Source of the DNA: Bacteroidia bacterium
GTDB lineage: Bacteria > Bacteroidota > Bacteroidia > Bacteroidales > Prolixibacteraceae
NCBI GenBank assembly: GCA_026391315.1
Contig: JAPLDT010000062.1
Coordinates: forward strand, 1 to 64,000
Length of the DNA stretch: 64,000 bases
Direction of reading: 5' to 3'
Part shown: positions 47,072 through 63,118 of the stretch, piece after piece
Numbering within the stretch: the stretch's first letter is position 1
Layout of the letters: every line of letters begins with the position of its first letter
Program-made: the position numbers and the translations under genes
The notes under the pieces: model-generated
Told to the model about the DNA's origin: nothing
The model's input: the letters and a program-made list of their open reading frames with translations, nothing else
Databases searched by the model: none

Positions 47072-47140
47072 CAAAGTTGATGCTCTTTTGGAGGGAAAGT
47101 GTTACACAAATCTTGATTATTATTACATGATTCACACTTT
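47072..47140 (-). promoter_or_regulatory. Direct-repeat activator promoter, copy 1 (OmpA gene)
   Basis: Plus-strand half-sites TTACACAAAT (from 47102) and TTACATGATTCACAC (from 47123), 21 bp apart. On the minus strand, 22 bp after the proximal half-site, the -7-like element is CAACTTTG (47072-47079). Proximal half-site is 60 bp from the start codon. Confidence 0.75.
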
Positions 47141-47146
47141 TAAAAC

Positions 47147-48979
47147 TTATTGAAAGGTCACAATGCCAGGTTTCCCGATTTCAAAATCCCTGAATCCCAA
47201 ATCGTTTGTCCTAAATGAGTTTGTTTTTAAAACGTTGTGATCCTTCCCTGGAATGGATGGATAGAAGGCAATGGAAATCTGGAATGCATTCAAAACCAGG
47301 TTTTCATTCTTAATCAACAGACCAAGTCCAATCTGGGAGTAAAGTTTATTGATTCCAGTCCCTGAGGAGGAATCTCCGAGCATGTCAAGTACTGTTATGT
47401 TGAGAAATGGACCAAAACGGAATCCAATGAAGTTCCAGGGAGTATACGCCTGAGTTTGCAGGGTAAGCAAGAGACGTCCTGTTCCTGATAGGCCCGCCAC
47501 ATTAAATCCATCCAATCCATGGCCATCATTCATGGTAAGTGTATCATAGGAAGAGAGGTTCATGCCAATAGCAATTTGAGGCTTTACGAACTGCCTGAAT
47601 TTCCATTTACCTATTTCCATTAAACCGGTGAAATAGATTAGACCAGCCGATAAAATACCCTGTCGGGGATGAGATGCTTCAAAAAAGGTTCCGTATTCGA
47701 TATTGGAGGAGAGATAGCCCCAAGAGTTGTAGTTTCCGAATGAAACCCGTGCACCCAGATAGGGTCTGCTTATACTGTTTTTGGTCTGGAATCCACCAGT
47801 CAGACTTAAGGCTTTTCCAATCGGGACATCTTCTGTAATACCAAATTTGAAAATGTACTTGTCCTGAACATATTTTCGGGTTGAGATGCCAAAGCTGGCC
47901 AGGTACAAATTTTCATTGAAATATTGGTTTTGCGGATCCAATAATAGAGTCGGTTTTTCAAGATATCGTAAACGTATAAAACGTACTGCAGAAATAAAAT
48001 TGGTTGTACGCACATATTCCGAATTGCCTTTGTAAAGCTGTATGGCATTCCCGGCCCAGTAATCCTGAACGTTGAATTGTATTCGCTGTGGGAGGTAAAT
48101 CAGGCTGCTGGTTCTGACTGAATCGAGCCGGTATTGTTGGGTGATACTTACACCGGCAGCCCACTTTGCAAAGGGCGAAAAGAATGGACGGTCAATGGCA
48201 ATTTGTCTGTTGAAATTTTCGTGCTCCAGCATGTCGTAATGCAGTCTTGCACCAATGTAACTGTTTCTAAAATTGGGGATTGCGTAAGTAGTGGTAAAGG
48301 AATTAACTCCTTTCGTATAATCCCTGCCATACACATTTTGAAAAGTATGGCCCAAACCTAAAAAATTTTGGTCTGTCAAACCAAATGTCATGCTTGAAGC
48401 AGACGCAGATCCATTTGGAATAATGCTCCAGTTATCTAAAACACGAATAAAAATATCAACTGAGTCTGAGTTCTTAGAAACGGATTTAATGTAAAAAGTT
48501 ACATCGCGTATATATTCCCTGCTTCGGACCAATCGTTCAGATTCCTTGACAAGCAAGGAGTCGAATAATTGGTTTTTTCTGATTAACAGCAGATTACGGA
48601 TGGTGATGGTCAGAGATTTTATGTGCAGGTCGTTACCTGTTTTGGCCAGGAAATTTCCCGGAGCCACAATTGTGTCGGCCATTGAATAACCAAACGGATC
48701 AAGGGTTACAATGTCGATATGACGAATGACTTTCCCCTCAAACGCACTATATGGTTTAACAATTAATTTCTTGTATATTTTCTTCTTTGCCTGATTAGTT
48801 GCAACAGGCTTAAAAACAAAGGAGTACATCAATTTCGTAAACTTCCCTTGTTTTGAAAAAGTCTCAATTTTCTTATACAGACGGGTTGAGTCTTTTGGGG
48901 CAGTAGGTTGCTGTGGAAATGCAAAATCACTGGTTAAGGATAAAATAATGAAAATGAGGAGAATATTCTTGAACCACAT
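47147..48979 (-). CDS. Outer-membrane barrel protein with N-terminal POTRA-like domain
   Basis: 610 aa. Signal peptide ends at FAFPQQ. Residues ~75-180 (KVIRHIDIVTLDPFGYSMADT, LHIKSLTITIRNLLLIRKNQLFDS, in part, ERLVRSREYIRDVTFYI) resemble a POTRA/BamA-type periplasmic domain; the rest is a 16-strand-sized barrel (GLTDQNFLGLGHTFQ, GARLHYDMLEHENF). The gene is 24 bp after mlaD and the strand agrees, so it may be the outer-membrane partner of the MlaEFD transporter. A widespread Bacteroidetes family without known function. Confidence 0.7.
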   Translation of the reverse strand: MWFKNILLIFIILSLTSDFAFPQQPTAPKDSTRLYKKIETFSKQGKFTKLMYSFVFKPVATNQAKKKIYKKLIVKPYSAFEGKVIRHIDIVTLDPFGYSMADTIVAPGNFLAKTGNDLHIKSLTITIRNLLLIRKNQLFDSLLVKESERLVRSREYIRDVTFYIKSVSKNSDSVDIFIRVLDNWSIIPNGSASASSMTFGLTDQNFLGLGHTFQNVYGRDYTKGVNSFTTTYAIPNFRNSYIGARLHYDMLEHENFNRQIAIDRPFFSPFAKWAAGVSITQQYRLDSVRTSSLIYLPQRIQFNVQDYWAGNAIQLYKGNSEYVRTTNFISAVRFIRLRYLEKPTLLLDPQNQYFNENLYLASFGISTRKYVQDKYIFKFGITEDVPIGKALSLTGGFQTKNSISRPYLGARVSFGNYNSWGYLSSNIEYGTFFEASHPRQGILSAGLIYFTGLMEIGKWKFRQFVKPQIAIGMNLSSYDTLTMNDGHGLDGFNVAGLSGTGRLLLTLQTQAYTPWNFIGFRFGPFLNITVLDMLGDSSSGTGINKLYSQIGLGLLIKNENLVLNAFQISIAFYPSIPGKDHNVLKTNSFRTNDLGFRDFEIGKPGIVTFQ

Positions 48980-49003
48980 TTGTTGTTGCCATTTATGCCG
49001 GTT

Positions 49004-49723
49004 TTATTTCTTTTGTTCTGCATTTTTTTTCTCCTCCGCCTTAGCTTCAGCTGCTTTTTCTTTCTTTTTGAAATAACCTCTGAAAAGGAAATTATGCTTG
49101 GCCGCATTCATGTTTTCATCCAATCCTTTGGAGCTTTTCTTAAGATTGACGATGGTCTGATTTAAATTCTCTGCAATGGTCGTATCCTGGATTAACCGGC
49201 CAAGCGTTCCTTCCCCACCGTTAATTTTGGTCATAATATCAGCCAGTTGATACGAAATTACTTCGGCATTGCCCGCAGTCACCTGTAAACTTGATATAAT
49301 AGCATCGGTTTCTACTGGTTCTTTCGACTCAAGCTGTTGACCTGCCAATGCCAGGGGGGCATTCGTACTTCCCTGGGTAATGATCAGAAGCCTGTCGCCG
49401 ATTAGTCCTTCCGATCCAATTGCGACTTCACTGTCACTCTTTATAAATTGTTTCACCTCCTTTTTAATCGTCATAGTAACCTTAACGGTTGAATCGTTGA
49501 TAATGGTGATGTTGTCTACAGTGCCTATATTGATCCCTGAAAAACGAATATTATTCCCAACCTGTAATCCACTTACATTGTGAAAAGTTGAATTGAGCGT
49601 ATATACCGGATTAAATAAATTTTTTTGTTTTCCGATGATAAATATGGCGAATACAAAGAGCACCAATCCCCCTGCAACAAAAAGCCCTAGCCTTACTTTA
49701 AATTTTTCTGTATGCGTTTCCAT
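49004..49723 (-). CDS. mlaD: MlaD/MCE-family lipid-binding protein
   Basis: 239 aa. One N-terminal membrane helix (LFVAGGLVLFVFAIFIIGK) and one MCE domain (TLNSTFHNVSGLQVGNNIRFSGINIGTVDNI in part; VAIGSEGLIGDRLL), then a helical tail. Part of a phospholipid ABC transporter at the inner membrane, holding lipid in the periplasmic ring. Third gene of the mlaE-mlaF-mlaD set. Confidence 0.9.
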   Translation of the reverse strand: METHTEKFKVRLGLFVAGGLVLFVFAIFIIGKQKNLFNPVYTLNSTFHNVSGLQVGNNIRFSGINIGTVDNITIINDSTVKVTMTIKKEVKQFIKSDSEVAIGSEGLIGDRLLIITQGSTNAPLALAGQQLESKEPVETDAIISSLQVTAGNAEVISYQLADIMTKINGGEGTLGRLIQDTTIAENLNQTIVNLKKSSKGLDENMNAAKHNFLFRGYFKKKEKAAEAKAEEKKNAEQKK

Positions 49724-49758
49724 TATTTTTGATATTAATTTTGCAACTTGTAGGACAA

Positions 49759-50535
49759 TTATTTAAAGAATGATTTGATTAAAACATCATCTGATTTTTC
49801 AAATTCTGCTAATTTTCCTTCCTTGTAAACTTCACCATTCTGCAACATAATAACACGGTTGGCCGTCATGCGGGCACATTCAATATCATGGGTAATGATG
49901 ATGGAGGAAGTTTTATATTTTTTTTGAATGCGGTCGATGAGTAAACTTATTTCGTCTGACGTTACCGGATCCAAACCGGTAGTAGGCTCATCATAAAGCA
50001 TAATCAGTGGGTCGACCACAATGGTTCGTGCCAGACTGATTCGCTTCCGCATTCCTCCGGATAGTTGTGATGGCATTTTATCAATGGCATCAGCCAATCC
50101 GACATTCTCTAATACTTCTTTTACTTTTTCGTCTATTTCCTTTTGGGTGAGGTCTCTTTTTACCCTACGCAAAGGAAATTCAAGATTTTGTTTTACGGTC
50201 ATGGAATCATACAGCGCACCACTCTGAAAAAGAAAACCAATTTTAGTTCTCAACTCGCCTAATTCATGGCTTTTTAACGTACCTACATTTTGTCCAAGCA
50301 CATCGATTGTTCCACCTCCGGGATTTAATAACCCAACAATACATTTGATTAGCACCGATTTTCCTGAACCTGATTTTCCAAGGACAACGAGATTTTCGCC
50401 ATTAAATAGTTGTAAAGAGACATTTTTTAAAACCTCCTGATCGCCAAAGCTTTTCATCAGGTTACTTATTCCAATGACCTGTTGTTTGCTGTTTTTTTTA
50501 TCCGGGGCAAGCGTTGTAGTTTGAGTATCCCTCAT
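49759..50535 (-). CDS. mlaF: ABC transporter ATP-binding protein MlaF-type
   Basis: 258 aa from the ATG at 50535 (MRDTQTTT); an upstream in-frame ATG would overlap mlaE. Walker A GKSGSGKSVLI, signature LSGGMRKRISLART, Walker B LIMLYDEPTTGLDPV and His in ITHDIECA. Powers lipid transport together with MlaE. Confidence 0.92.
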   Translation of the reverse strand: MRDTQTTTLAPDKKNSKQQVIGISNLMKSFGDQEVLKNVSLQLFNGENLVVLGKSGSGKSVLIKCIVGLLNPGGGTIDVLGQNVGTLKSHELGELRTKIGFLFQSGALYDSMTVKQNLEFPLRRVKRDLTQKEIDEKVKEVLENVGLADAIDKMPSQLSGGMRKRISLARTIVVDPLIMLYDEPTTGLDPVTSDEISLLIDRIQKKYKTSSIIITHDIECARMTANRVIMLQNGEVYKEGKLAEFEKSDDVLIKSFFK

Positions 50536-50548
50536 AATTTTCAAATTA

Positions 50549-51394
50549 TTAAAGCATATCGGTAATTTGCACTGCAATTACATCCACTACCAACACCAGG
50601 AGTGATCCTAACACAACGGCTGAATTGGCTGCTATGCCTACGCTTTCTGTCCCACGTCCTGCATTGTATCCTTTGTAACAACCAACCAGTCCAATAACAG
50701 CGCCGAAAAAAACAGATTTTACAAAGGCAGGTAAAAAGTCAATAAATTCAATATGGCTAAATGCCTGCGAGAAAAACAGGACAAATGTGACATCCCCCTT
50801 GATATTTGCACCGGCCCAGCTTCCAAGAATTCCCAGGGCATCGGCATATAAAATTAGCAGGGGGATCATCAGTGTGGCCGCGAGTACCCTAGTAACCACT
50901 AAAAATCGCATTGGATTGGTGGCTGATACTTCCATTGCCTCAATTTGTTCTGTTACTTTCATGGAGCCCAATTCGGCGCCCATGCCTGAACCAATCTTTC
51001 CGGCACAGATCAAAGCTGTTATCACCGGTCCCATTTCGCGGATAAGTGAGACAGCCACCATTCCCGGAAGCATCGCATCCGCTCCGAATTTTGCAAGCGA
51101 AGGACGCGCTTGAATGGTAAGCACCAGACCCATGATAATTCCCGTTATCGAGATAAGGGGTAATGTTTTATTTCCTATTTGATAGCACTGGCGCAAAAAT
51201 TCTTTGAATTCGAAATTGCGTGAAAATGTCTCTTTGATCGTGCTGTTAATGAACAACAAAACGTCGGCGAAATCAGTTAGAAAATTGCTTACTTCTGCTT
51301 TTTTTGAAATAGTAGAATTGCTGATCTTGATACTGAGTTCCTTTGCTTTTCGAAGGTTAGGAATCAACTTTGTGACTTTGATAATTTTTTTCAT
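50549..51394 (-). CDS. mlaE: ABC transporter permease MlaE-type
   Basis: 281 aa. Several membrane helices and the MlaE signatures GIIMGLVLTIQARPSLAKFGA, LIREMGPVITALICAGKIGSGMGAELGSMKVTEQIEAMEV (in part) and NPMRFLVVTRVLA. Forms the inner-membrane channel of the lipid transporter. First gene of the set; 13 bp before mlaF. Confidence 0.93.
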   Translation of the reverse strand: MKKIIKVTKLIPNLRKAKELSIKISNSTISKKAEVSNFLTDFADVLLFINSTIKETFSRNFEFKEFLRQCYQIGNKTLPLISITGIIMGLVLTIQARPSLAKFGADAMLPGMVAVSLIREMGPVITALICAGKIGSGMGAELGSMKVTEQIEAMEVSATNPMRFLVVTRVLAATLMIPLLILYADALGILGSWAGANIKGDVTFVLFFSQAFSHIEFIDFLPAFVKSVFFGAVIGLVGCYKGYNAGRGTESVGIAANSAVVLGSLLVLVVDVIAVQITDML

Positions 51395-51432
51395 GATGCC
51401 GCGTTTGATCCATTGAAATACAAAACCAATCT

Positions 51433-51474
51433 AAAAAGGCATCATTCCTGGAATACCAATAAACGATGCCTTTT
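51433..51474 (-). terminator. Terminator of the 46-aa CsbD-like gene
   Basis: Stem AAAAGGCATC (51434-51443) with GATGCCTTTT (51465-51474). On the minus strand it follows the stop codon by 16 bp and ends in five T. Confidence 0.8.
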
Positions 51475-51490
51475 CAAATTAATCCGACAA

Positions 51491-51631
51491 TTAAAATGCT
51501 CCGATGATTTTGTGCAATTCCTCTTTTGTTTTGCCAAGCGTAATTTGAAGTTTTCCAATCATCTCTTCTTTTTTCCCTTCCTCAAACATCAGATCATTGT
51601 CTGTGAGAATGGCAAATTTCTGTTTGTTCAT
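51491..51631 (-). CDS. CsbD-like small stress protein (46 aa, shortened N-terminus)
   Basis: ATG at 51631, TAA at 51491. The protein begins MNKQKFAILTDNDLMFEEGK, continues KEEMIGKLQITLGKTKEELH and ends KIIGAF. It matches the C-terminal part of CsbD family proteins (KxKFAxLTDDDL...EGKxEELxGKLQ), which usually carry about 12 more residues including a WNxxKGKLKQK segment. Here an in-frame stop upstream rules that out. Its promoter is copy 2 of the direct-repeat element. CsbD-type proteins accumulate under general stress in other bacteria; their role is unknown. Confidence 0.7.
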   Translation of the reverse strand: MNKQKFAILTDNDLMFEEGKKEEMIGKLQITLGKTKEELHKIIGAF

Positions 51632-51666
51632 GGTATACAGTTATTATCGTGAAAATTTTCACTTTG

Positions 51667-51736
51667 TAAAGGTGGGCCTCAAAACACCATTATTGCTTAC
51701 ACAATTCCAAATAAGAATTACATCATTCACACATTA
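51667..51736 (-). promoter_or_regulatory. Direct-repeat activator promoter, copy 2 (CsbD-like gene)
   Basis: Plus-strand half-sites TTACACAATT (51697) and TTACATCATTCACACATTA (51718), 21 bp apart. After 22 bp the minus-strand -7-like element is CACCTTTA (51667-51674). The proximal half-site lies 66 bp from the start codon. Best half-site repeat: GAATGATGTAA and GAATTGTGTAA. Confidence 0.8.
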
Positions 51737-51770
51737 AAGAGGCTGCATGAATCTAATCAGACAGCCTCTT
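51737..51770 (-). terminator. Hairpin after the large OmpA-like gene
   Basis: 9-bp stem AAGAGGCTG (51737-51745) with CAGCCTCTT (51762-51770). It lies between the OmpA-like gene end (51863) and the CsbD promoter. The T run is short, so a moderate terminator. Confidence 0.6.
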
Positions 51771-51862
51771 CCGGGGTCTTCAGGTAGTAAGCTTTTAGTT
51801 ATTTGCTATTGGCTTTTAGCTGAAGAGCTTTTTCTTATTCTAATCAAACAATGTTTGAAGAA

Positions 51863-53899
51863 TTAATTGGCAGGAACTATATCAATGACAACTGTTCTAT
51901 TGTAAAAACGTTCCTCAGGATATTTGTTGTCAAACGGAGCCATGTTAAGATCCTCTCCGAATCCATAAACTTCAAATTTAACATCGCTTCTGCCGGCTTT
52001 TGCCAATCCCTTTTCAAGAATAGTCCTGACATCGTTGGCTCTCTCCACTGACAATTTCTGGTTGTAATCTTTTTCTCCGATAATGTCAGTATGACCGTGA
52101 ATAATCACTTTGGCATTATTTGGGATCTTTGGAATCACTACTTCAGTCAGGTATTTGTCATAGATACCAATGGCTTTCGCATTGTTGAATTCATAGATGA
52201 CGCTGAATCTCATCATCTCCTCAGTTTTAGGAGGAGTCCAAAGTACCATGTGGGCGCTGACCTCTTTTTTGACAACTTTTCCACTCTTGGTTTGGCCTAT
52301 CATGGTGACTTTGTAATCACCTACTGGTCTGGTACCCAGGATCGATTTGCCAGGGAGACTAGCATTGTCTTTGGTATATGGCCCAAAATATTGCATTTGT
52401 CCCTGTTCATCAACCACTACCAATGACCATGAGGTGAACGCTTTTTCTGCCCCTTCTGCATTGAAAGTCACATAACTGTCAAGAGGCGCTTCCTGTAAAG
52501 AGACGATCTCAACTGGTTTCATTGGTACATCCGGACCACTTTGGAACTCCATCATTAAAGCTGGAGATTCACTCATAATTGAAACCCTGTTGTCTCCTTC
52601 GCGAAGCAAAACGAGTTCTTTTGTTCCCCAAGGTTGTTCAGATGGAATTTTAGGTTTGATCCTGCCTTCAACAGAGATTCTCGATCCGTCAATTCCAAAA
52701 ACATCTACCAGGTAAATTTTCACTGACTCAGCCATTTGTTTTCCGACCTTTGGTCCTTCCATGGATGATCCTGTCAGCATGACAACGGTAGATGGATTTT
52801 TAGACATACGATCACCCAAGATGTTTAGCACATTGTAGTATACCGTCATTTGTCGTTGTGCACGACCCGACAATTCCTTAGGTGTAAAGACTTCCAGTTG
52901 TTCTTCTTTAAAATCTTTGACCTGATCTTTTCTCAGTAAAACATAGCGATCAGGAATCTGTGTTGATTTCCCATTGAAAAATACATAGTTGCGAAGTGGG
53001 AAAGTTTCCCTTACCCTGCGCTCAACAACAATATTTTTTGGTGCATTCAATGTGAATTGTACATCAGGTTCAACTACAACAATGGCAGGTACCAATACCT
53101 CTAAAGGTTCTTCAATAACGTGTCCGCGTCCTAGTTTGAGGGCGATACCAGCTCTTAGCGTAGTCAGATTCCATGACTCAACAGTTCGCGGATCCTGTCC
53201 GAAATAGGGCTGGAAAGAGACAAACGGAGAAATTACAAATTGTGTGCGTTTGTTTTGTGAAGAAATGGGGATATCATATCCGGCACCGATTTGCATGGAA
53301 ACCAGACTGTTTCTGACATCGCTAAAATCCCCTTTCACTTCAGGATCGGCAACTTGCAGAGGATATGCAGGATTTGTTCCCTGTTGGTATGTGAACGACT
53401 TTGAAGTATTGAACGCAAAACGAGGACCCGCATACAGATAAAAATCTGATTTGAAAGGAGCGAAGCGCAAGCTTGGTTCTATTGTAAAATAAGCAAGACC
53501 AGTCTTAAGGTCCTCAGGACAGTTACAAGGTGACAAGACCTGATCAAATTTTCCTTTACGGCCATCATAACCGAATTGTAGCATCAAACCCAATCGTGTA
53601 TTTGGACGATGGTATTCAATAAGAGGTGCGACGAAAAGTCCAACGCCATTGCCATTGTAGAAAGCGGATGGAACCGTCAGGGCTGAATTCAACATCTGTG
53701 TTGTACCGCGGTAGAAGTTTACATTTGCTCCACCGGCCACTCCAAAATACCAGGATGGTCTAGTGTACTTTACGTTCTGCGCATGAACGGAGGCCTGAAC
53801 ACCTGTCAGAATCAAGGCACTTATAATAAGACTCTTAACTGTCAGCCTATAAGGGAACCACGCTAAGCGTGATTCCTTTTTATAATTTATTGTTTTCAT
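51863..53899 (-). CDS. Large OmpA-family outer-membrane protein
   Basis: 678 aa. Signal peptide (VKSLIISALILTGVQASVHAQ, in part), an N-terminal barrel of ~250 residues (WYFGVAGGANVNFYRG, GLMLQFGYDGRKGKF), a middle region, and a C-terminal OmpA domain (FEFNNAKAIGIYDKYL-like FNNAKAIGIYDKYLTEV, KVIIHGHTDIIGEKDYNQKLSVERANDV in part, YNRTVVIDI). A second, older OmpA-like half (MTVYYNVLNILGDRMSKNP, VVMLTGSSMEGPKVGK) precedes it. Anchors the outer membrane to the cell wall. Separated from the upstream gene by a terminator hairpin. Confidence 0.85.
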   Translation of the reverse strand: MKTINYKKESRLAWFPYRLTVKSLIISALILTGVQASVHAQNVKYTRPSWYFGVAGGANVNFYRGTTQMLNSALTVPSAFYNGNGVGLFVAPLIEYHRPNTRLGLMLQFGYDGRKGKFDQVLSPCNCPEDLKTGLAYFTIEPSLRFAPFKSDFYLYAGPRFAFNTSKSFTYQQGTNPAYPLQVADPEVKGDFSDVRNSLVSMQIGAGYDIPISSQNKRTQFVISPFVSFQPYFGQDPRTVESWNLTTLRAGIALKLGRGHVIEEPLEVLVPAIVVVEPDVQFTLNAPKNIVVERRVRETFPLRNYVFFNGKSTQIPDRYVLLRKDQVKDFKEEQLEVFTPKELSGRAQRQMTVYYNVLNILGDRMSKNPSTVVMLTGSSMEGPKVGKQMAESVKIYLVDVFGIDGSRISVEGRIKPKIPSEQPWGTKELVLLREGDNRVSIMSESPALMMEFQSGPDVPMKPVEIVSLQEAPLDSYVTFNAEGAEKAFTSWSLVVVDEQGQMQYFGPYTKDNASLPGKSILGTRPVGDYKVTMIGQTKSGKVVKKEVSAHMVLWTPPKTEEMMRFSVIYEFNNAKAIGIYDKYLTEVVIPKIPNNAKVIIHGHTDIIGEKDYNQKLSVERANDVRTILEKGLAKAGRSDVKFEVYGFGEDLNMAPFDNKYPEERFYNRTVVIDIVPAN

Positions 53900-53935
53900 A
53901 TATTATATAATAATTTATTGTTTTTTAAAGGGTAA

Positions 53936-53955
53936 ATCCCCCCGCAAGGGGGGAT
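53936..53955 (-). terminator. Terminator of the ice-binding-type lipoprotein gene
   Basis: Perfect stem ATCCCCCC (53936-53943), loop GCAA, GGGGGGAT (53948-53955), 13 bp after the stop codon on the minus strand. Confidence 0.75.
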
Positions 53956-53968
53956 AAACGTTAATTTA

Positions 53969-55990
53969 TTAAGGCTTTGTAACAGTACTTGCATCTAACG
54001 TAACCGCAGCAATTCTTGTCAATGCTCTTCCGTTAAGTACAGCACCGGTATTGAGCGTAATTGATTGATCAGCCAGAATATTTCCGTAGAAAACAGAGGT
54101 TGTTCCAAGTGTTGCTGAAGTACCAACAATCCAAAAGATGTTATTTGCTTGTGCGCCACCTGCCAAAACAATACTGGTAGCAGGATCTGTGGTAAGTGTT
54201 GAGCCCAATTGGAATATCCATACTGCATTTGCGTCACCTTGCGCATCCAGGGTTAAAATTCCATTTGCTCCCGTTCCTGATATTCCACTCGTTGAAGAGT
54301 TAGAATACAGACCTGGGGCAAGGGTAAGACCACCGAGTTGTCCGGGCAATGAAATAGCATTTAATGATCTACTTTGACCATCTATATAAGCTGATGTTAA
54401 GCAGAGTTTTGCAGCGGCGGCAGTTGGAGTTGTAATTTGCTGCGTTCCATTAATTATTCCTGGAGGGAAACCAATCAATGCTGACCCCGGACTCAATCCA
54501 ACATCTCCGGTAATTATTGTAGGACCGGTGCTGGTAATGGTCGAGCCGGCAAGTATAGCAAACGGTGCAGCACAACCAAGATCGATTGCTAATGGACCTG
54601 ATGGAGGTATTATGACTGCCGTAAAGTTTGCGGTGATATTTTTATTCGCATTCATGGTAACAGTCAATGGGTTCGTCGTGCCAGTAGCATCTACGCTCCA
54701 TGATGAAAATGTGTAACCAGCATTTGGCCTTGCTACAAGCTCTACCAAAGCTCCACTTGTGTAGGTTGTCTGATCAGGGTTTTTCAATACAGTTCCATTA
54801 ACTGCTGTTACATTTAATGTGTAGCTTATTGCTGCATAGTTTGCTGTCAACGTCCTGTTTCCGGAAATAGTAAACAAATAGCTTGCACTTGTTGATGCAA
54901 CAGTTGTACCTTCTGTCCAGTTCGTGAAAGTAAATCCGGTATTTGGAACCGCGGTTACAGTTACTGATAAACCTGAATTAAATGTGCCGCCTCCGCTCGT
55001 TGTTCCGCCTAATAACGGGTTGGATACTACTGTAACCAAATATTTAGGTATAAAGTTGGCAACCAGTGTTTTGTTGCCAGCCATTGCCAACTGATAGCTT
55101 GCATTAGTGGATACAATAGTTGTACCATCTGTCCAGTTTAAGAAGACAAAACCAGCATTTGCAACTGCAGCTACTGTTACGGTTGAGCCCTGTAAAAATA
55201 CTCCTGCTCCGCTGGTTGTTCCGCCGAGTAATGGACTGGATGACAATGTCAATTGTGGAATTGTAGTAAAACTCCATACATAATCTACTGCCATTGGTGT
55301 GCCTAGGGTATTCTTTACTCCTGCAGAAATTGTACCGGTATAAACGGTGAAAGGAGCAAGATTACTGGTAGGAGTAAAGGATGCAGTAGTGCTCGTATAT
55401 GAGAATTTTCCAGGTACTGTTGAGGAACCTTGTTTGATGGTAAAGTTGGTAGCCGGCGTTTTTAGCGTTAATGAGTCAATTGGTACGTTAAAAGTTGCGA
55501 CAATTACTTTGTTAAGGAGTACCCCAGTGGCATTGTTTGCAGGATCACTGGTAACCAATGGAGGAATGTCCGTTGCAAAAGACCATACATAATCGGTCTG
55601 TAATGCATTGCTTGATAGATCCCTGGCTGCAGTAGTCACTCTTCCGGTATAAGTAGTGCTTGGTGTTAGAGGATTAGCAGGTGTAAATAGTGCTGTTACT
55701 CCTGAGTAAGTTACTGTACCGGTAACCGCCGTCATAGTATTTACTCCGGCGATTGTGGTCGAAGCCATCAGGGTAAAGGATGATCCTGTAATTGTTGCGG
55801 GATTCATTTTTTCATTGAAAGTCGCAGATACGACCTGGTTGAGAGGCACTTTAACAGCCCCGTTTGCCGGGATTGTTGATATCACAAGTGGACATACACC
55901 CACTGTCGCCTGATAATCATTTTTTTTGCACCCACTGATTAATACAACCAATATTAATGTAAGCGTCATGAATAGTACTTTAATTTTCAT
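53969..55990 (-). CDS. Lipoprotein with Ig-like repeats and a C-terminal DUF3494 (ice-binding-type) domain
   Basis: 673 aa. Lipobox LVVLISGCKK. Two Big_5-type Ig domains (TIPANGAVKVPLNQVVSATF; SDPANNATGVLLNKVIVATF), three ~75-residue bacterial repeat domains (SSPLLGGTTSGAGVF, GFVFLNWTDGTT; SNPLLGGTTSGGGTF, GFTFTNWTEGTT; GYTFSSWSVDATG) and a C-terminal DUF3494 domain (LGCAAPFAILAGSTITSTG, ITGDVGLSPGSALIGFPPG, ILADQSITLNTGAVLNGRAL). Proteins of this type bind ice or act as surface adhesins. Promoter copy 3 is directly upstream. Confidence 0.85.
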   Translation of the reverse strand: MKIKVLFMTLTLILVVLISGCKKNDYQATVGVCPLVISTIPANGAVKVPLNQVVSATFNEKMNPATITGSSFTLMASTTIAGVNTMTAVTGTVTYSGVTALFTPANPLTPSTTYTGRVTTAARDLSSNALQTDYVWSFATDIPPLVTSDPANNATGVLLNKVIVATFNVPIDSLTLKTPATNFTIKQGSSTVPGKFSYTSTTASFTPTSNLAPFTVYTGTISAGVKNTLGTPMAVDYVWSFTTIPQLTLSSSPLLGGTTSGAGVFLQGSTVTVAAVANAGFVFLNWTDGTTIVSTNASYQLAMAGNKTLVANFIPKYLVTVVSNPLLGGTTSGGGTFNSGLSVTVTAVPNTGFTFTNWTEGTTVASTSASYLFTISGNRTLTANYAAISYTLNVTAVNGTVLKNPDQTTYTSGALVELVARPNAGYTFSSWSVDATGTTNPLTVTMNANKNITANFTAVIIPPSGPLAIDLGCAAPFAILAGSTITSTGPTIITGDVGLSPGSALIGFPPGIINGTQQITTPTAAAAKLCLTSAYIDGQSRSLNAISLPGQLGGLTLAPGLYSNSSTSGISGTGANGILTLDAQGDANAVWIFQLGSTLTTDPATSIVLAGGAQANNIFWIVGTSATLGTTSVFYGNILADQSITLNTGAVLNGRALTRIAAVTLDASTVTKP

Positions 55991-56022: not shown

Positions 56023-56092
56023 TAAAAGTAAGCCCGGCTATTTATTTGAGTGTTACATAATTTGTTGAAAGAGTTACATCATTCACACATTA
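56023..56092 (-). promoter_or_regulatory. Direct-repeat activator promoter, copy 3 (ice-binding-type lipoprotein gene)
   Basis: Half-sites TTACATAATT (56053) and TTACATCATTCACACATTA (56074), 21 bp apart. -7-like element TACTTTTA (minus strand, 56023-56030) after exactly 22 bp. Proximal half-site 63 bp from the start codon. Confidence 0.8.
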
Positions 56093-56100
56093 GCCGACCT

Positions 56101-57387
56101 TTAGTTAATTACACCATAAACGTCTGGTAAAAAGATTACTTTTTTACCTTCAACAATTACCGGATTGTAAACAATAAAAACAGGTACTTTATGGGGAAGT
56201 TTAATGGTTTTTGTTTCTGTGTTTTTTCTGCCACTCTTCAATTTTTTTATGTTAATTTCTCCATTAAGCAATCTATCAGCAAGAACAAAAGGTTTTTCCA
56301 ACCTCACACAGCCATGACTTAAAAACCTGTAATCCTTTGTAAAAGCTCCCTGCCAGCTTGTAGCATGCAGAAATATACTGAATGGATTTGCCAATTCGAA
56401 CTTTATAATTCCCAGCGAATTCCTGCTTCCGGTTCCTTGCCTGAAAAAATAGGGAAAGCTCTTTTCATCATAGGATTTCCATTTTACTATGGATTCATCT
56501 ATTACATGACCCTTGGCATCAACTACTTCAAAATTATTCAGTTCAAGGTAATTTTCCTTTATTTGAACTTTAGGCAAAATTTCCGTCACTGCAATTGAAT
56601 GAGGTACATTCCAGCGAGGAAAGGTTACAACATCCGTAACAAAAGATGCAATCGTTGGGGTAGGAGTCATTTTCTTTCCTACCACAGCCCGCATTTTTAC
56701 CTTCAAAAAATCATTTTGAAAATATCTTACTTCTGTTTCGGGAATATTTACAACAATGCGTTCGAAAGGGTGATTTATAGAGAAATATCTCCTGTAATTC
56801 ATGGCAAGCGCTATCTTTTTATATTTCAGTGAATCCATTGTCCTGATAGAATCGTTCAGAAAATTCTTTAAAACTAAATATTCATGATCTTTACAATCGA
56901 GTCTGGAGACCATTTCGGAGACCGATTCGTGGGATTTTGAATTGCGCAACTGATTGATGTAGACCGAGTCATGAGAAAGACTAACTCCATCGTAATCGAA
57001 TTTGATATTGCCTTGCTGAAGTACTTTGATGAAATTTAGTACAAGACCTGTAATTTGCCTGTCACGTTGCTCTTTGTAAATACTATCCAATGAATTATTG
57101 CTTAGCAGAGCAACCCGAATCAGATTGGATTGAGGTTTGTCAGTTGAGATACCCAAATGACCCGCTGACTCAATCATCAGGAGCCACTCAGTAGCTTTTT
57201 TTTTGTTTTCCTCAGATGAAAACCAAAAAAGCTGCTGATGGTTTTGGAGATAAAAATTTTGAACGATGGTCTCTTCCGGTACAACTGATTGTTGTGAGAA
57301 ACTATTGAAAACAAGACAAACAACTACAAGGAAAGTAAGTAAACACCATTTGATGACGGCAACTATTTTTCCGGCAAAGTACAACAT
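56101..57387 (-). CDS. L,D-transpeptidase (YkuD/YcbB-type)
   Basis: 428 aa. N-terminal signal or anchor (VIKWCLLTFLVVVCLVF). Middle scaffold region, then the YkuD catalytic motif: HATSWQGAFTKDYRFLSHGCVRLEKP (in part) with His and Cys of SHGCVRLE. These enzymes make 3-3 cross-links in peptidoglycan or attach proteins to it. It starts 18 bp after the upstream DUF6600-type gene, so it should share promoter copy 4. A link between wall cross-linking and the secreted DUF6600 protein is likely. Confidence 0.88.
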   Translation of the reverse strand: MLYFAGKIVAVIKWCLLTFLVVVCLVFNSFSQQSVVPEETIVQNFYLQNHQQLFWFSSEENKKKATEWLLMIESAGHLGISTDKPQSNLIRVALLSNNSLDSIYKEQRDRQITGLVLNFIKVLQQGNIKFDYDGVSLSHDSVYINQLRNSKSHESVSEMVSRLDCKDHEYLVLKNFLNDSIRTMDSLKYKKIALAMNYRRYFSINHPFERIVVNIPETEVRYFQNDFLKVKMRAVVGKKMTPTPTIASFVTDVVTFPRWNVPHSIAVTEILPKVQIKENYLELNNFEVVDAKGHVIDESIVKWKSYDEKSFPYFFRQGTGSRNSLGIIKFELANPFSIFLHATSWQGAFTKDYRFLSHGCVRLEKPFVLADRLLNGEINIKKLKSGRKNTETKTIKLPHKVPVFIVYNPVIVEGKKVIFLPDVYGVIN

Positions 57388-57405
57388 ATGGATAGGATTT
57401 AAATA

Positions 57406-58881
57406 TTAATCATTCTGCTTTTTATCCTCTCCGGACCGGCGTTCTTTTGGTTGTTCTTTCGGTTTTTGGTTCTGAGGTTTTACAGTATTCTGCTGTTGCC
57501 TTTCATTGTTTCTTACAGGGGCTGCCTGCTGTGGTTGTTGTGGAGGCTGAGATCTGTTGGTGTTCTCCGGTCTGGTCGCATTCTGTTGTTGCCTTTCACT
57601 GTTACCGGCGGGTGCAGCTTGCTGAGGCTGCTGTGAAGGTTGAGATCTGTTGATGTTCTGTTGTCTCATATTATTCTGTTGTTGCCTCTCGTTGTTACCG
57701 GCAGGTGCAGCTTGCTGAGGCTGTTGAGAAGACTGAGACCGGTTGATGTTCTGTTGTCTCATATTATTCTGTTGTTGCTTCTCGTTGTTACCGGCAGGTG
57801 CGGCTTGCTGCGGCTGCTGTGAAGGTTGAGACCTGTTGATGTTCTGTTGTCTCATATTATTCTGTTGTTGTCTCTCGTTGTTATTGGCAGGAGCAGTTTG
57901 CTGAGGTTGTTGTGAAGGCTGGAACCTGTTGTTCTCCTGTTGTCTCGTATTGTTATTCTGCTGTTGCCTTTCATTGTTATTTACCGGAGGTATGTCGCGC
58001 GACTGCCTTTGCCTGATATCATTGCTGTTTCCCGGATTATTATTCCTAGGCTGAGTGGATACACTTCTTTCAGAAGGACGTTTTACATTCTCCAGATTTT
58101 CAATTCTTCTTGGAGCAGGGTTTCGGTCAGACCCACCATTTCTCACTATTTCAGGTCTATACATTCTTAACTGATCATTGTTCTGATCCCTACCCGGTCT
58201 ATTGCTTTCCTGAATTGTTTGCGGATTAATCCTTCGACCTGTAACTCTCTGTACATCCTCTCTGGCAGGTCCGGTAACGTAAGTAGTATGCCTACTATTA
58301 TCAATATAGGTTGTATTGATCATTGTAGAGTTTCTTATAATCATGGCATGCTCAGATCGATCGACAGAATAATTATAGATATCGCGTCTTTCCAAATCCA
58401 TATCCCTTACAAACATCCAATGGTCGTTGTATCTATTGTATGGCCTACCAAAACTGAGATAGATGCTAATGCCAGGCTCCATTGGCGACCAGCCATAATA
58501 TCCATCTGCTCTTCTCCAGTTCACCCAGGAGGGACCCCATTCGTTGTCGGGTACCCAGAGCCATCCATAATAGTTGTCATAACTCCAGCGGCCATAATGG
58601 AAAGGTGCCCATCCCCATTCGTAATCCGAAACCCAGGTCCAGCCATAGTCGGTAAGTGTCCAATAACCCGCCGTTGAATAGGGGACAAAGTCAGGGCCGA
58701 CATCCGGGATCCAGACATAGCCATAATCTCTATAATCGACCCATTGCCCGTAAGGACTTAAAGCATCATAGAAAACCTGAAAGCTGACGTTCTCCGGCTG
58801 GGCGGAAATCTGTTTTGGATTGATTAATGCAGCAATTACCAAAGCGATAACCATTGCTAATTTCTTGATATTTAGTTTCAT
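57406..58881 (-). CDS. DUF6600-type secreted protein with Gln/Asn-rich tandem repeats (paralogue 1)
   Basis: 491 aa. Signal peptide ends near ISAQ. N-terminal domain rich in Trp/Tyr (FYDALSPYGQWVDYRDYGYVW in part, WTWVSDYEWGWAPFHYGRW, WGPSWVNWRRADGYYGWSPM), a DUF6600-like aromatic-repeat fold. From about residue 300 comes a disordered tail with 31-residue repeats (NNERQQQNNMRQQNINRSQ, then PSQQPQQAAPAG), five to six copies, middle ones nearly identical. Likely cell-wall or surface associated. Paralogue at 61644. Function unknown. Confidence 0.7.
   Translation of the reverse strand: MKLNIKKLAMVIALVIAALINPKQISAQPENVSFQVFYDALSPYGQWVDYRDYGYVWIPDVGPDFVPYSTAGYWTLTDYGWTWVSDYEWGWAPFHYGRWSYDNYYGWLWVPDNEWGPSWVNWRRADGYYGWSPMEPGISIYLSFGRPYNRYNDHWMFVRDMDLERRDIYNYSVDRSEHAMIIRNSTMINTTYIDNSRHTTYVTGPAREDVQRVTGRRINPQTIQESNRPGRDQNNDQLRMYRPEIVRNGGSDRNPAPRRIENLENVKRPSERSVSTQPRNNNPGNSNDIRQRQSRDIPPVNNNERQQQNNNTRQQENNRFQPSQQPQQTAPANNNERQQQNNMRQQNINRSQPSQQPQQAAPAGNNEKQQQNNMRQQNINRSQSSQQPQQAAPAGNNERQQQNNMRQQNINRSQPSQQPQQAAPAGNSERQQQNATRPENTNRSQPPQQPQQAAPVRNNERQQQNTVKPQNQKPKEQPKERRSGEDKKQND
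57514..57981. repeat. 93-bp tandem repeats in the DUF6600-type gene
   Basis: Five units of ~93 bp (31 codons; the first is one codon longer). Units at about 57606-57885 differ by only a few bases, so recent expansion by slippage or recombination is likely. Repeat number is expected to vary between strains. Confidence 0.8.
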
Positions 58882-58910
58882 TTGATAATAATTTGTTTTT
58901 CATTTGCCAA

Positions 58911-58972
58911 ATGGAATACCCATGAGGTTAATGCCATCTCGTTTGGTGATTTCCAAATCATGGCTATTTCAT
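58911..58972 (-). repeat. 62-bp palindromic repeat, copy C (diverged)
   Basis: Plus strand begins ATGGAATACCCA and ends TGGCTATTTCAT, with centre CTCGTTTGGTGAT. On the minus strand its orientation relative to the downstream gene equals that of copy B. It lies 30 bp before the DUF6600-type start codon and between that gene and its activator site (59020-59087). Confidence 0.7.
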
Positions 58973-59019
58973 GTTAATAAGATTTACTAACGGGCTAACC
59001 GCAGATTTTTTTAATCGCA

Positions 59020-59087
59020 TAAAGGTAGGAGCACACCCGAAGTCAATGGTTACACAATTCCTGAAAAGAATTACATCATTCACATAT
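59020..59087 (-). promoter_or_regulatory. Direct-repeat activator promoter, copy 4 (DUF6600 + L,D-transpeptidase)
   Basis: Half-sites TTACACAATT (59050) and TTACATCATTCACATAT (59071), 21 bp apart. -7-like element TACCTTTA (minus strand, 59020-59027) after exactly 22 bp. 169 bp upstream of the start codon, farther than in other copies because a palindromic repeat lies in between. Confidence 0.78.
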
Positions 59088-59092
59088 CCATC

Positions 59093-61615
59093 TTAGAATT
59101 TAACCTTCTTATAAAAAATTGTCTTGGTAATTTCTGCCGCTGCGATGTAAAACACGACAATCAACATCAGAAGCAGATAGGTTGAAAGGGAGAGTGGGCT
59201 GAATCCAAAAATTGTTCCAAGAGGGGTGAAGGGTAGTATCAGGGTAACAACAGCAATTGACAATGTTGCTATCAACAGATATTTTCCAGGTCGGCTCCTG
59301 AAGAAGGGTTTTCTGCTTCGGATAACAAGTACAATGATCGATGCAGAGATAACAGATTCCAAAAACCATCCAGTCCTGAATTGGCCTTCATTGGCATGGA
59401 GTATTAGCAAAAGTAACCCGAAAGTCAGGTAATCAAATACGGAACTTACCAGCCCAAAGGTAATCATGAACATACGAATAGCCTTGATGTCCCAGCGTCT
59501 TGGATAATTAATCATTTCCTCATCAACATTGTCTGTAGCAATGGTCATCTCAGGAAAGTCTGTCATCAGGTTGGTGAGTAGAATCTGTTTGGGCAATAAT
59601 GGAAGAAATGGAATAAACAGAGACAATCCAGCCATGCTGAACATATTTCCAAAATTGGCGCTGGTTGCCATGAATACATACTTTAGCGTATTGGCAAAGG
59701 TTGTTCGTCCTTCTCTCACGCCTTCGACAAGTACACTCAGATCCTTTTCGAGCAATACAATATCGGCAGCATCTTTTGCAACATCTGCCGCAGTATCTAC
59801 CGAAATTCCAACATCTGCAGCATGAAGAGCGGAGGCATCATTGATCCCATCACCCATGTATCCGACCACGTTACCGGCCTTTCGCATGGCTATGATAATA
59901 CGTTCTTTTTGATTGGGTTCTATTTCAGCAAATACATCCACTCCGCCCACACTTCTGAGCAATGCGGCATCGCTCATTTGATGGAGTTCAGGACCAGTGA
60001 GGATGCTGGTATCTGACAGTCCCATCTTTTTACTCAGACTGGCTGCCACAAGATGGTTATCACCTGTGATAACTTTGAGCGAAACACCCATTTTCCGCAG
60101 GATAACAATTGTATCGGCGATATTCGCCTTGGGCGGGTCAAAAAGGGTAAGAAATCCTAAGAAAGTCATATCCTTCTCATCATCTTTGTTAATGGGCGAT
60201 TCAGATGACAGGTTTTTGTAGGCAATTCCAATCGTGCGAAAGCCATCATTGCTAAATGCTTCGAAGTGGTTCTGAATCTGTTTCTGCAACGATGCTATTT
60301 TAACCACACTTCCTTCTTTAATTTCCACAGATGAACAGACATTCAGTATATTAGACAAGGCGCCTTTGGTTACCATCAAATGTGAATCTCCTTGCTTAAC
60401 GGATACGCTTAGGCGTTTCCGAAGAAAATCATAGGGAATTTCGTCATGCTTCTTATACCCCTTAATGTCTATCTTCCGAAAGTTTAGGATGGCTTCATCG
60501 ATAGGATTTGTGAATCCTGTTTCAAATGAAGCGTTTAGGTAAGCAAAAAGGAACGCTTTTTCGCTCGCATCTCCGTTCACATCGAGTGCAGATTCTACCT
60601 TTACCGTTCCTTCCGTAAGCGTGCCGGTTTTATCAGAACAGATGATATTCATGCTGCCAAAGTTTTCAATTGAGGCAAGCCGTTTAACAATGACTTTCTT
60701 CGCCGCCATCTTCTTGGCGCCATGAGCAAGGTTGATGCTGATGATGGCGGGCAATAGCTGTGGCGTTAAACCAACTGCAAGCGCAAGTGAAAATAGAAAA
60801 GCCTCAAGGACAGGCCGGTGCAAATAAACATTGATAGCAAATATGAGTATAACCAACACCAGGGTAACTTCTCCGAGAAAATAACCAAATCGACGGATAC
60901 CGCGTTCAAATTCTGTTTCAGGCGCTTTAAGCTTGAGTCGTTCTGATACTTTGCCAAATTCAGTATTTGTGCCGGTAAGCGTAACCAGGGCTTTTGCATT
61001 CCCGCTCACCACATGCGTACCCATCCAAACCGAATTTGATCGTTTAGCAAGGGGTGTACCGGCAGGTAATACGGAAATTTCCTTTTCTGCAGGAAAAGTT
61101 TCTCCTGTCAGCATAGCCTCATCCACAAAAAGATCTTTCGATTCAAGAATCAGGCAGTCACCCGGAACAATGTCGCCGGCATTCAGAATAACGATGTCAC
61201 CCGGAACAATGGCTTCTACCGGAATTTCCACCTCTTTTCCATCGCGAAGAACAGCCGCTTTAATTTGCACCAGGGCAAGCAATTTTGCTACCGCATTGGA
61301 GGCACTGTACTCTTGCCAAAAACCAAGAAGTCCGCTAACAATGACGATGCTGAGAATAATGGAAGCATCAACAAAGTTGTGCAAGAACAATGACAAACCA
61401 GTAGCTCCCAAAAGAATGAGAATGATTGGACTTTTAAACTGGCCGATAAGAAGCGTAAATGCACCCGATTGTTTCTGGGGTTTCAGACTATTGGCACCAT
61501 AGCTTGCGAGCCTTTTTTTTGCTTCAGCGGTTGTAATGCCGCTGATTGTAATCTGAAGCTTGTTAAGTAATTCGGATGCGGAGATGCTCCAAAAGGACGA
61601 CAAGTTTTGATCCAT
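59093..61615 (-). CDS. mgtA: Magnesium-translocating P-type ATPase
   Basis: 840 aa. P-type ATPase with phosphorylation motif SDKTGTLTEG, TGE-type actuator LTGETFPAEKE, hinge GYMGDGINDASALHAADVGISVDTAADVAKDAADIVLLEKDL (in part) and NPIDEAI. The N-terminal cation ATPase segment (KRLASYGANSL) and the MgtA-like NLMTDFPEMTIATDNVD support Mg2+ uptake. It follows the second DUF6600-type gene by 28 bp, so it is probably expressed from promoter copy 5. Confidence 0.92.
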   Translation of the reverse strand: MDQNLSSFWSISASELLNKLQITISGITTAEAKKRLASYGANSLKPQKQSGAFTLLIGQFKSPIILILLGATGLSLFLHNFVDASIILSIVIVSGLLGFWQEYSASNAVAKLLALVQIKAAVLRDGKEVEIPVEAIVPGDIVILNAGDIVPGDCLILESKDLFVDEAMLTGETFPAEKEISVLPAGTPLAKRSNSVWMGTHVVSGNAKALVTLTGTNTEFGKVSERLKLKAPETEFERGIRRFGYFLGEVTLVLVILIFAINVYLHRPVLEAFLFSLALAVGLTPQLLPAIISINLAHGAKKMAAKKVIVKRLASIENFGSMNIICSDKTGTLTEGTVKVESALDVNGDASEKAFLFAYLNASFETGFTNPIDEAILNFRKIDIKGYKKHDEIPYDFLRKRLSVSVKQGDSHLMVTKGALSNILNVCSSVEIKEGSVVKIASLQKQIQNHFEAFSNDGFRTIGIAYKNLSSESPINKDDEKDMTFLGFLTLFDPPKANIADTIVILRKMGVSLKVITGDNHLVAASLSKKMGLSDTSILTGPELHQMSDAALLRSVGGVDVFAEIEPNQKERIIIAMRKAGNVVGYMGDGINDASALHAADVGISVDTAADVAKDAADIVLLEKDLSVLVEGVREGRTTFANTLKYVFMATSANFGNMFSMAGLSLFIPFLPLLPKQILLTNLMTDFPEMTIATDNVDEEMINYPRRWDIKAIRMFMITFGLVSSVFDYLTFGLLLLILHANEGQFRTGWFLESVISASIIVLVIRSRKPFFRSRPGKYLLIATLSIAVVTLILPFTPLGTIFGFSPLSLSTYLLLMLIVVFYIAAAEITKTIFYKKVKF

Positions 61616-61643
61616 AATTTCTCACATTACTGGTTTTGTTTAT

Positions 61644-62954
61644 CTATGGCTTTGATTCTTTTTGTTGTTCTTTCCTGTTATTTTGAGGTTTCTCACTGTT
61701 CTGCTGCTGTTGTTTTGCATTGTTGTTGGCTGGTGTCGCATTCCTTTGCTGTTGTACTGGTTGTTGTACAGGCTGAACCCTGTCATTATTTTGCGGCCTT
61801 GCAGTATTTGGTTGCTGTTGTCTTCCATTATTATTGGCTGGTGTTGCATTCCTTTGCTGTTGTTCTGGTTGTTGTGCCGGCTGAATCCTGGTGTTATTTT
61901 GCGGTCTTGCAGTATTTGGCTGCTGTTGCCTTTCCTTATTATTGGCCGGAGTTACATTTCTTTGCTGTTCTGCAGGTTGTTGTGTTGGTTGAACCCTGGT
62001 ATTATTTTGCGGCCTTACAGTATTTGGTTGCTGTTGTCTTTCCTTATTATTGGCCGGAGTTGCATTCCTTGGCTGTTGCTCAGGCCGTACCCTCGTATTG
62101 TTGTTGTTCTGAGGGCTTGTATTCCCAGGTTGAGTGGTCATCTTTCGTTCCTCAGGTCGTTTCACATCCTTCAGGTTGGTTATCCTGGATGGTTTATATT
62201 CCCTGTTATTGCTTTTATTCACCTGAGGTCTGTAAATCTGCAACAGGCCATTGTTCATCTGTTGTCCCGGTCTGCTATTTTCACGAATAGCAACAGGAAT
62301 AATCTTTCTGCCGGTAACTTTTTGAACATCAGCTCTGGCCGGCCCGGAAACATAGGTAGTATGCCGACTATTATCAATATAAGTTGTATTAATCACCGTT
62401 GAGTTTCGAACGATCCGGTCATGATCAGTTCGATTGACATAATAGCGATTGATATCGGATCTTTCAAAATCCCTGTCTCTCACAAACAACCAGTGATCAT
62501 TGTTGCTGTTGTATGGTCTGCCAAAACTGATACTGATACTAATCCCCGGCTCCATTGGAGACCAGCCATAATAGCCATCGGCTCTTCTCCAATTCACCCA
62601 TGATGGACCCCATTCATTGTCTGGCACCCAGAACCAACCATAATAATTATCATAATCCCATCGACCATAATGAAAAGGCGCCCATCCCCATTCGTAATTT
62701 GACACCCAGGTCCAGCCATAGTTAGTCAATATCCAATGACCTTCTGTTGAATAAGGAACAAAGTCCGATCCTGCATCAGGAATCCATACATAACCATATT
62801 TTGGATAGTCTACCCATTCGCCGTATGGACTTAATTGATCATAAAAAACCTGGTAACTCACATTGGCATGTTGTGATGATGCATGTTTTGGAAATATTAC
62901 CGAAGATGTAACAAACATTAGTAAAACTACTAATCGCTTAATGTTTCTTTTCAT
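61644..62954 (-). CDS. DUF6600-type secreted protein with tandem repeats (paralogue 2)
   Basis: 436 aa. Signal peptide, then a Trp/Tyr-rich domain nearly identical in pattern to the 57406 protein (WTWVSNYEWGWAPFHYGRW; WGPSWVNWRRADGYYGWSPM). The tail has three 36-residue repeats (PANNKERQQQPNTARPQNNT) different from the paralogue, so the tails diverged after duplication. It stands before mgtA, as the other copy stands before an L,D-transpeptidase gene. Confidence 0.72.
   Translation of the reverse strand: MKRNIKRLVVLLMFVTSSVIFPKHASSQHANVSYQVFYDQLSPYGEWVDYPKYGYVWIPDAGSDFVPYSTEGHWILTNYGWTWVSNYEWGWAPFHYGRWDYDNYYGWFWVPDNEWGPSWVNWRRADGYYGWSPMEPGISISISFGRPYNSNNDHWLFVRDRDFERSDINRYYVNRTDHDRIVRNSTVINTTYIDNSRHTTYVSGPARADVQKVTGRKIIPVAIRENSRPGQQMNNGLLQIYRPQVNKSNNREYKPSRITNLKDVKRPEERKMTTQPGNTSPQNNNNTRVRPEQQPRNATPANNKERQQQPNTVRPQNNTRVQPTQQPAEQQRNVTPANNKERQQQPNTARPQNNTRIQPAQQPEQQQRNATPANNNGRQQQPNTARPQNNDRVQPVQQPVQQQRNATPANNNAKQQQQNSEKPQNNRKEQQKESKP
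61734..62057. repeat. 108-bp tandem repeats in the second DUF6600-type gene
   Basis: Three units of 36 codons coding for PANNxxRQQQPNTxRPQNN-type peptide, followed by a partial fourth copy to the 3' end. Confidence 0.8.
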
Positions 62955-63048
62955 GATGATTGGAATTTAAATGCTCTTATAGTATTGGAATATAAATAGA
63001 AAGGATACAACCCTTCTATACTTTTACCCGCGTACAGATAGATTTGCT

Positions 63049-63118
63049 TAAAGATACTGGCATGAATTGCCATAAATGTTACAAAACTTTTGGAAAGAGT
63101 TACATCATTCACACATTA
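63049..63118 (-). promoter_or_regulatory. Direct-repeat activator promoter, copy 5 (DUF6600 paralogue 2 + mgtA)
   Basis: Half-sites TTACAAAACT (63079) and TTACATCATTCACACATTA (63100), 21 bp apart. -7-like element TATCTTTA (minus strand, 63049-63056) after exactly 22 bp. 125 bp from the start codon. Confidence 0.8.

Follow-up and report, generated by a model that had tools for sequence, protein, structure and literature searches.

A direct-repeat promoter element before stress-protection genes in Bacteroidota and its probable AraC-type activator

The repeated element and its genes in the window

The first 64,000 nucleotides of contig JAPLDT010000062.1 (assembly GCA_026391315.1), from a member of the Prolixibacteraceae (Bacteroidota) and hereafter called the window, carry a recurrent two-part element in which a pair of direct half-sites stands at a fixed distance from a -7-like promoter box. 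Judging from sequence comparisons, we consider it probable that this element is the operator of an AraC-type activator, here termed AraC1, of stress-protection genes in many Bacteroidota. All five elements of the original prediction are present where it had placed them, each a putative activator element on the minus strand and an exact match to the pattern: 63079-63113 (with TGTGAATGATGTAA-N16-TGTAA, the distal half-site being the high-coordinate end), 59050-59084, 56053-56087, 51697-51731 and 47102-47136. The TTAC starts of the paired half-sites are 21 bp apart in 5/5, and on the minus strand 22 bp separate the proximal TGTAA from a -7-like octamer in every case, namely TATCTTTA (63049-63056), TACCTTTA (59020-59027), TACTTTTA (56023-56030), CACCTTTA (51667-51674) and CAACTTTG (47072-47079). 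The pattern TGTGAATNATGTAA-N16-TGTAA is matched exactly at six places of the window, each time on the minus strand, a number never reached in 100 dinucleotide shuffles of the window, which gave a mean of 0.20 matches even with up to three mismatches. The sixth match, a further putative element at 12515-12549 (minus strand), had been overlooked; its octamer, GAACTTCG (12485-12492, minus strand), is not a full NANNTTTR match, and a site with similar flanks in another genome of the family (G076) has GAACTTTG in this position.

The genes behind these elements are likewise on the minus strand. The 63079 element is followed, 124 bp past its end, by the start of a DUF6600 gene (61644-62954; PF20245, E=9e-32) and then, probably in the same operon, by an mgtA-like cation-transporting P-type ATPase gene (59093-61615; Pfam E1-E2_ATPase and Cation_ATPase N and C). 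The target of the 59050 element, starting 168 bp past the element end, is a second DUF6600-like gene (57406-58881), so named from its by-eye similarity to the gene at 61644-62954 and not from a family search; a gene for an L,D-transpeptidase of the YkuD type (56101-57387; PF03734, E=4e-20) follows it in a predicted operon. Behind the 56053 element, an ice-binding-like lipoprotein gene (53969-55990; PF11999, E=6e-54) starts 62 bp past the element end. The first target of the 51697 element is a CsbD-like gene of 46 codons (51491-51631), whose match to PF05532 (E=1e-8, 35.4 bits) falls under the curated cut-off of 40, and the likely operon continues with open reading frames (ORFs) named by eye as Mla-type permease, ATPase and MlaD-like genes (49004-51394). 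An OmpA-family lipoprotein gene (46248-47042; PF00691, E=3e-18) starts 59 bp past the end of the 47102 element, and the sixth element stands before a DUF4382-like lipoprotein gene (11733-12443) with a match to PF14321 (E=9e-4, 19.9 bits) under the cut-off of 25; a clear DUF4382 gene (87 bits) is found behind another element of this genome, on contig C63. Both DUF6600-type genes (within 57406-62954) have long, Q/N-rich repetitive C-terminal tails, and each has an element of its own.

Occurrence, anatomy and targets of the element

Across the 4.69-Mb genome, the core TGAATNATGTAA-N16-TGTAA has 41 matches with up to two mismatches (23 of them exact) versus 8 for the reversed pattern, and most of them lie on contigs C22 (that of the window), C41 and C66. 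The original prediction had expected such sites upstream of genes and not inside them, as is indeed the case: when ORFs of at least 100 residues are considered, 26 of the 27 sites with at most one mismatch are outside ORFs and have a same-strand ATG ORF start within 350 bp, versus 11.7% of 1200 random positions from the same loci, and the remaining site is also outside ORFs with no start within that distance. Hence, none of the 27 is inside such an ORF, versus 73% of the random positions; a looser ORF caller (45 residues, with GTG and TTG starts) placed at least six sites of this genome, including that at 12515, within some ORF. One exact core match (C90:28399), which has neither the TGTG start nor a -7-like box, is probably due to chance. 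A similar placement is seen elsewhere, in 73 of 79 sites from the 80 named loci, i.e., the best 80 of at least 571 AraC homologue matches, which include those of a second paralogue, AraC2 (2 sites inside ORFs, 4 without a start), and in 30 of 33 sites from 30 family loci found through the motif (2 inside ORFs, 1 without a start). In the comparison with related genomes, 63 of 120 genomes of the family have a site, versus 3 matches to the reversed pattern; when 296 genomes from across the phylum are sampled, a site with at most one mismatch turns up in 29, some probably by chance, and the reversed pattern again has 3 matches. The element is thus real and widespread, and its position is before genes.

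Its anatomy was derived from the 137 sites that remain in other retrieved loci (L045-L184) once near-identical ones are merged. Their consensus is about AAxGTGTGAATNATGTAACTYTTTxxAAARTTxTGTAACA, followed by a little-conserved stretch and then by YAnCTTTR. Each half-site comprises a box A, which is GTGAAT in the distal one and a weaker AAART in the proximal one, and a box B, which is TGTAAC in both; the spacers vary between sites and the half-sites are constant. A NANNTTTR box is offset by 22 bp in 100 of the 137 sites and by 21 bp in 17, with no other single offset exceeding 5 sites, and in the window's own genome by 22 bp in 20 of 27 and by 21 bp in 2 of 27. A box of the primary-sigma type with a degenerate first base is therefore held at a fixed position in 117 of the 137. 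The shared promoter architecture, with a spacing fit for a dimeric activator, thereby stands as originally proposed. So does the suggestion that -7 boxes ending in A might be weak, and the departure from TAnnTTTG extends beyond the final A (0.34 of the 137 sites) to the first base, which is C in 0.45 and T in 0.22. Primary-sigma promoters of Bacteroidota have a separate conserved TTTG element at -33; no such TTTG is conserved between the proximal half-site and the -7 box in the 137-site profile. In Flavobacterium psychrophilum, the TAnnTTTG consensus is put at -12 to -5 in PMC9723704. By that register, the proximal TGTAA would span roughly -39 to -35 and the distal element roughly -69 to -56, which resembles the layout of AraC at araI1-I2.

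The range of genes behind the sites goes beyond the cell envelope. In the window's own genome, the first genes code for OmpA-family, DUF6600, ice-binding-like, CsbD-like, YtxH, DUF3108, DUF6496 and DUF4382 proteins, superoxide dismutase, ferritin-like and bestrophin-like proteins, as well as several small proteins with no assigned family; the sites before the YtxH and DUF6496 genes have two mismatches each. Further, a transaldolase gene stands directly behind a site, with phosphoketolase and class-I aldolase genes after it, and a universal stress protein gene is the second gene behind another. In the 80 named loci, which are centred on AraC genes, the genes behind sites include members of clusters named partly by eye, namely AraC (20), ice-binding-like (16), cupin-like (10, under the Pfam cut-off), a small-protein cluster (9) and CsbD-like (8). 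The superoxide dismutase, ferritin-like, CsbD-like, YtxH, transaldolase and universal stress protein targets look like those of a general stress response. Hence, the envelope-stress regulon first envisaged does include envelope genes but was drawn too narrowly, and the targets suggest general stress, with envelope stress as only a part of it. The ice-binding family was tried as a marker equivalent to the element and rejected: it is present in 30 of the 120 family genomes, all 30 with the element, and 33 of the 63 genomes with the element are without it.

The candidate regulator AraC1 and its link to the element

The original prediction found no identifiable regulator in the window, which agrees with the location of the candidate that we name, on contig C41. 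AraC1 is a small AraC-family protein of 197 residues from a TTG start (C41:20939-21529), the genome having no other AraC1 match, and it heads an operon with a hybrid kinase of 1078 residues (PAS, HisKA, HATPase and REC domains) and a receiver protein of 144 residues. An exact element stands in front of the operon, beginning 113 bp ahead of the methionine codon of the AraC1 motif MVSNRC, and the AraC frame begins with TTG in 36 of 39 rows (of the LKLYIKYMVSNRCK type). The protein has the double helix-turn-helix domain of the AraC type (HTH_18, 57.5 bits versus a cut-off of 33.6), in whose second recognition helix His156 is invariant among the aligned homologues and Asn159 almost so; beyond HTH_18 and HTH_AraC, no domain was found in Pfam, and none at cut-off in NCBIfam. 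In the structural model (predicted local distance difference test score 82, predicted template modelling score 0.60), an N-terminal domain with a beta-alpha-beta-beta-alpha-beta order precedes the AraC DNA-binding fold. Foldseek matches the latter to the AraC-type DNA-binding domain of 6swi (E=2e-5, probability 1.00) and the former to the copper chaperone Atx1 (2xmv; probability 0.99-1.00, template modelling score 0.70 of the target, with a weak E of 0.22). In the metal-binding motif MxCxxC, AraC1 has serine in place of the first cysteine. Kinase, receiver and AraC are separate genes here, unlike in hybrid two-component proteins with a C-terminal AraC domain; in another genome (G092, L205:757-3372), AraC1 forms the N-terminal part of an in-frame fusion with the PAS hybrid kinase. 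Frames in G111 (869 residues) and G103 (964 residues) were considered as further AraC-kinase fusions and rejected, leaving that of G092 as the only one.

Among the 30 best AraC1 loci, one per family genome including that of the window and chosen by protein similarity, 27 have an element upstream (20 with at most one mismatch, 5 with two and 2 with three); the others are L088, which is near a contig end and has a differing leader, L100 and L101. At least one site is found in 50 of the 51 family genomes with a strong AraC1 homologue (E<=1e-62) versus 13 of the 69 without (p=4e-20), and at least three sites in 43 of 51 versus 6 of 69. Among the 96 genomes that are at least 90% complete, the corresponding counts for at least one site are 40 of 41 versus 5 of 55. 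Where the AraC match is only a weaker one, three or more sites occur in 4 of 35 genomes, a contrast that arises partly by construction. In the sample from across the phylum, 107 of 296 genomes have an AraC1 homologue at E<=1e-40, and in one of them (G148) the single site begins 219 bp ahead of the homologue. In the named loci, the next same-strand gene belongs to the kinase cluster for 26 of 27 AraC genes with an upstream element (counting a 123-residue piece at L113), and the next gene does so for 17 of 39 rows without a detected site, membership being by BLAST, with a Pfam check for the kinases of the window's genome and of G092.

Several observations weigh against AraC1 as the regulator. 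G061, rated 100% complete, has four sites (L064, L213, L219 and L225), of which two match the -7-like box in full and two nearly so, and no AraC1 homologue at E<=1e-12; conversely, G062 has a homologue of the cysteine-bearing type at E=3e-67, yet no site. Sites in the absence of a strong homologue are also seen in G075, G076, G079, G083 and G108 (3-15 sites, in assemblies 66-84% complete) and in G010, G033, G055, G069, G086, G087 and G099 (1-2 sites), of which G010, G033, G086 and G087 are at least 97% complete. An upstream element (up to three mismatches, within 400 bp) is present in only 28 of the 80 named loci, and of their 89 homologue rows, 39 lack an element both upstream and at the stop codon. 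The family genomes are related, so that the p-values overstate their independence, and the tree discussed below comes from a quick, unfinished search. AraC1 could itself be a target rather than the master.

Alternatives, proposed mechanism and relatives of AraC1

The alternative that survives best, although we regard it as unlikely, takes AraC1 to be only a member of the regulon, with the element bound by another dimeric regulator, such as one of the LytTR or OmpR/NarL type, under the same kinase. A direct-repeat period of 21 bp also fits dimers of LytTR proteins or response regulators, the last gene of the AraC1 operon codes for a receiver, and the sites of G061 are there without AraC1. However, that receiver has no DNA-binding domain detectable in Pfam, and no LytTR or response-regulator genes linked to elements were seen, whereas AraC1 and AraC2 genes stand at elements in several families. 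No LytTR protein was noticed beside the sites of the window's own genome when the first 110 residues of each ORF were examined by eye. LytTR proteins are encoded in 119 of the 120 family genomes; at this level, their presence fails to separate genomes with and without the element, so that their distribution is uninformative and leaves room for a LytTR regulator. Of the three classes that had been put forward initially, LytTR, AraC and response regulator, it is thus AraC that gains support, and nothing was found linking a LytTR to the element.

Much less probable is recognition by an extracytoplasmic function (ECF) sigma factor, for instance the one encoded at 44273-44779 on the plus strand and identified through Pfam. 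Its gene adjoins the cluster of elements and the -35 boxes of such factors often end in AAC, but the downstream box, at a fixed 22 bp, resembles the -7 box of the primary sigma factor. We rejected this particular ECF gene as the regulator, as a homologue is present in 108 of the 120 family genomes regardless of the element (at least three sites, p=0.76). That the element has no regulatory role, being just a repeat, a mobile sequence or an AT-rich pattern that arose by chance, is barely credible: many of the sites in the window's genome lie on the three contigs C22, C41 and C66, but half-sites are fixed while spacers differ, reversed patterns are scarce in both genome sets, and the sites avoid ORFs.

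Returning to AraC1 as the activator, a parallel is suggested by the class II mode of activation already known for AraC-type proteins, as in AraC at araI1-I2, where direct half-sites lie 21 bp apart and the proximal one adjoins the core promoter. By analogy, a dimer of AraC1 would bind the two direct half-sites two helical turns apart, with the proximal one, just upstream of the -7 box, taking the place of the -33 element; it might thereby recruit RNA polymerase with the primary sigma factor to the weak YAnCTTTR boxes. AraC1 would also activate its own operon, amounting to positive autoregulation, and the PAS hybrid histidine kinase and the receiver presumably pass a stress signal to it. The regulon would then constitute a general and envelope stress response. 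The likeness to AraC at araI1-I2 comprises the 21-bp direct half-sites, the AraC-type DNA-binding domain and an element ahead of the regulator gene, but the N-terminal domain of AraC1 is copper-chaperone-like in the model, in contrast to the sugar-binding cupin of AraC, the core promoters have the -7 box typical of Bacteroidota, and many stress genes are served instead of a sugar operon. As in the hybrid two-component systems of Bacteroides, the signalling unit of AraC1 unites a histidine kinase, a receiver and an AraC-type domain, and these are fused in G092; unlike in those systems, AraC is separate in the window's genome and N-terminal in G092, and the targets are stress genes and not polysaccharide loci.

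The second paralogue, AraC2, shares 63-69% identity with AraC1 at seven loci of the family, and at five of these (L083, L085, L092, L094 and L099) its stop codon is the TGA of TGTGAAT within an element that stands before the next gene; at L079 the element is just past the stop and at L100 there is none. The same overlap recurs in named loci such as L151, L167 and L168, and an element at exactly +556, the same register, is found in 15 of the 80. In the quick tree, with only the 54 rows that have an upstream element and the 29 that have one at or just after the stop codon being counted, the two placements are explained by one change each, the dividing branch having a support of 78. A further set of AraC paralogues has the same domain layout and retains the cysteines (MVCxxC), those fetched being mostly 45-55% identical to AraC1; none of the 30 such rows has an upstream element, 7 have one at or just past the stop codon and 23 have neither. 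In G103 (L207:1662-4535), a cysteine-bearing relative of AraC1 immediately precedes the gene of a P-type ATPase that has an HMA domain; this arrangement suggests that the ancestor sensed metals.

A broader proposal, to which we give somewhat less than an even chance, is that AraC1 and its PAS kinase form the master switch of the general stress response in much of Bacteroidota, working without a dedicated stress sigma factor, and that AraC1 arose from an HMA-AraC metal sensor that lost the first cysteine of MxCxxC and was rewired to the kinase. The targets recall the SigB, RpoS and PhyR-EcfG regulons in their CsbD, superoxide dismutase, ferritin-like, YtxH, envelope and universal stress protein genes, but the operator here precedes a primary-sigma-type -7 box by 22 bp, and control would apparently be by an AraC-type activator in place of an alternative sigma factor. 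If this holds, AraC1 and the kinase would do in Bacteroidota what SigB, RpoS or PhyR-EcfG do elsewhere. To our knowledge, the control of general stress in Bacteroidota is poorly understood. With the operator precisely defined, a candidate for the activator named together with its kinase, and a list of targets, this question becomes directly testable. No description of the AraC1 regulator, operator or regulon was found in the literature searched, as judged for the broader searches from the listed titles and openings of abstracts, most subscription journals and all bioRxiv preprints being outside its scope, and the word AraC is absent from the passages of PMC9723704 examined.

Beyond the family, the best 80 of the at least 571 homologue matches include records named Flavobacteriaceae, Chitinophagaceae, Saprospiraceae and Cytophagales. 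Full identity of the AraC rows links G036, G094 and G112 with Sunxiuqinia indica and two Prolixibacteraceae assemblies, from which the family is probably the Prolixibacteraceae. AraC1 of S. indica (L110) has an element upstream, and the homologue in Flavobacterium cucumis (L141) has none there. Records labelled Ignavibacteria, Limnohabitans and Melioribacteraceae (L108, L147 and L153) contain homologues as well; binning errors or transfer may account for these.

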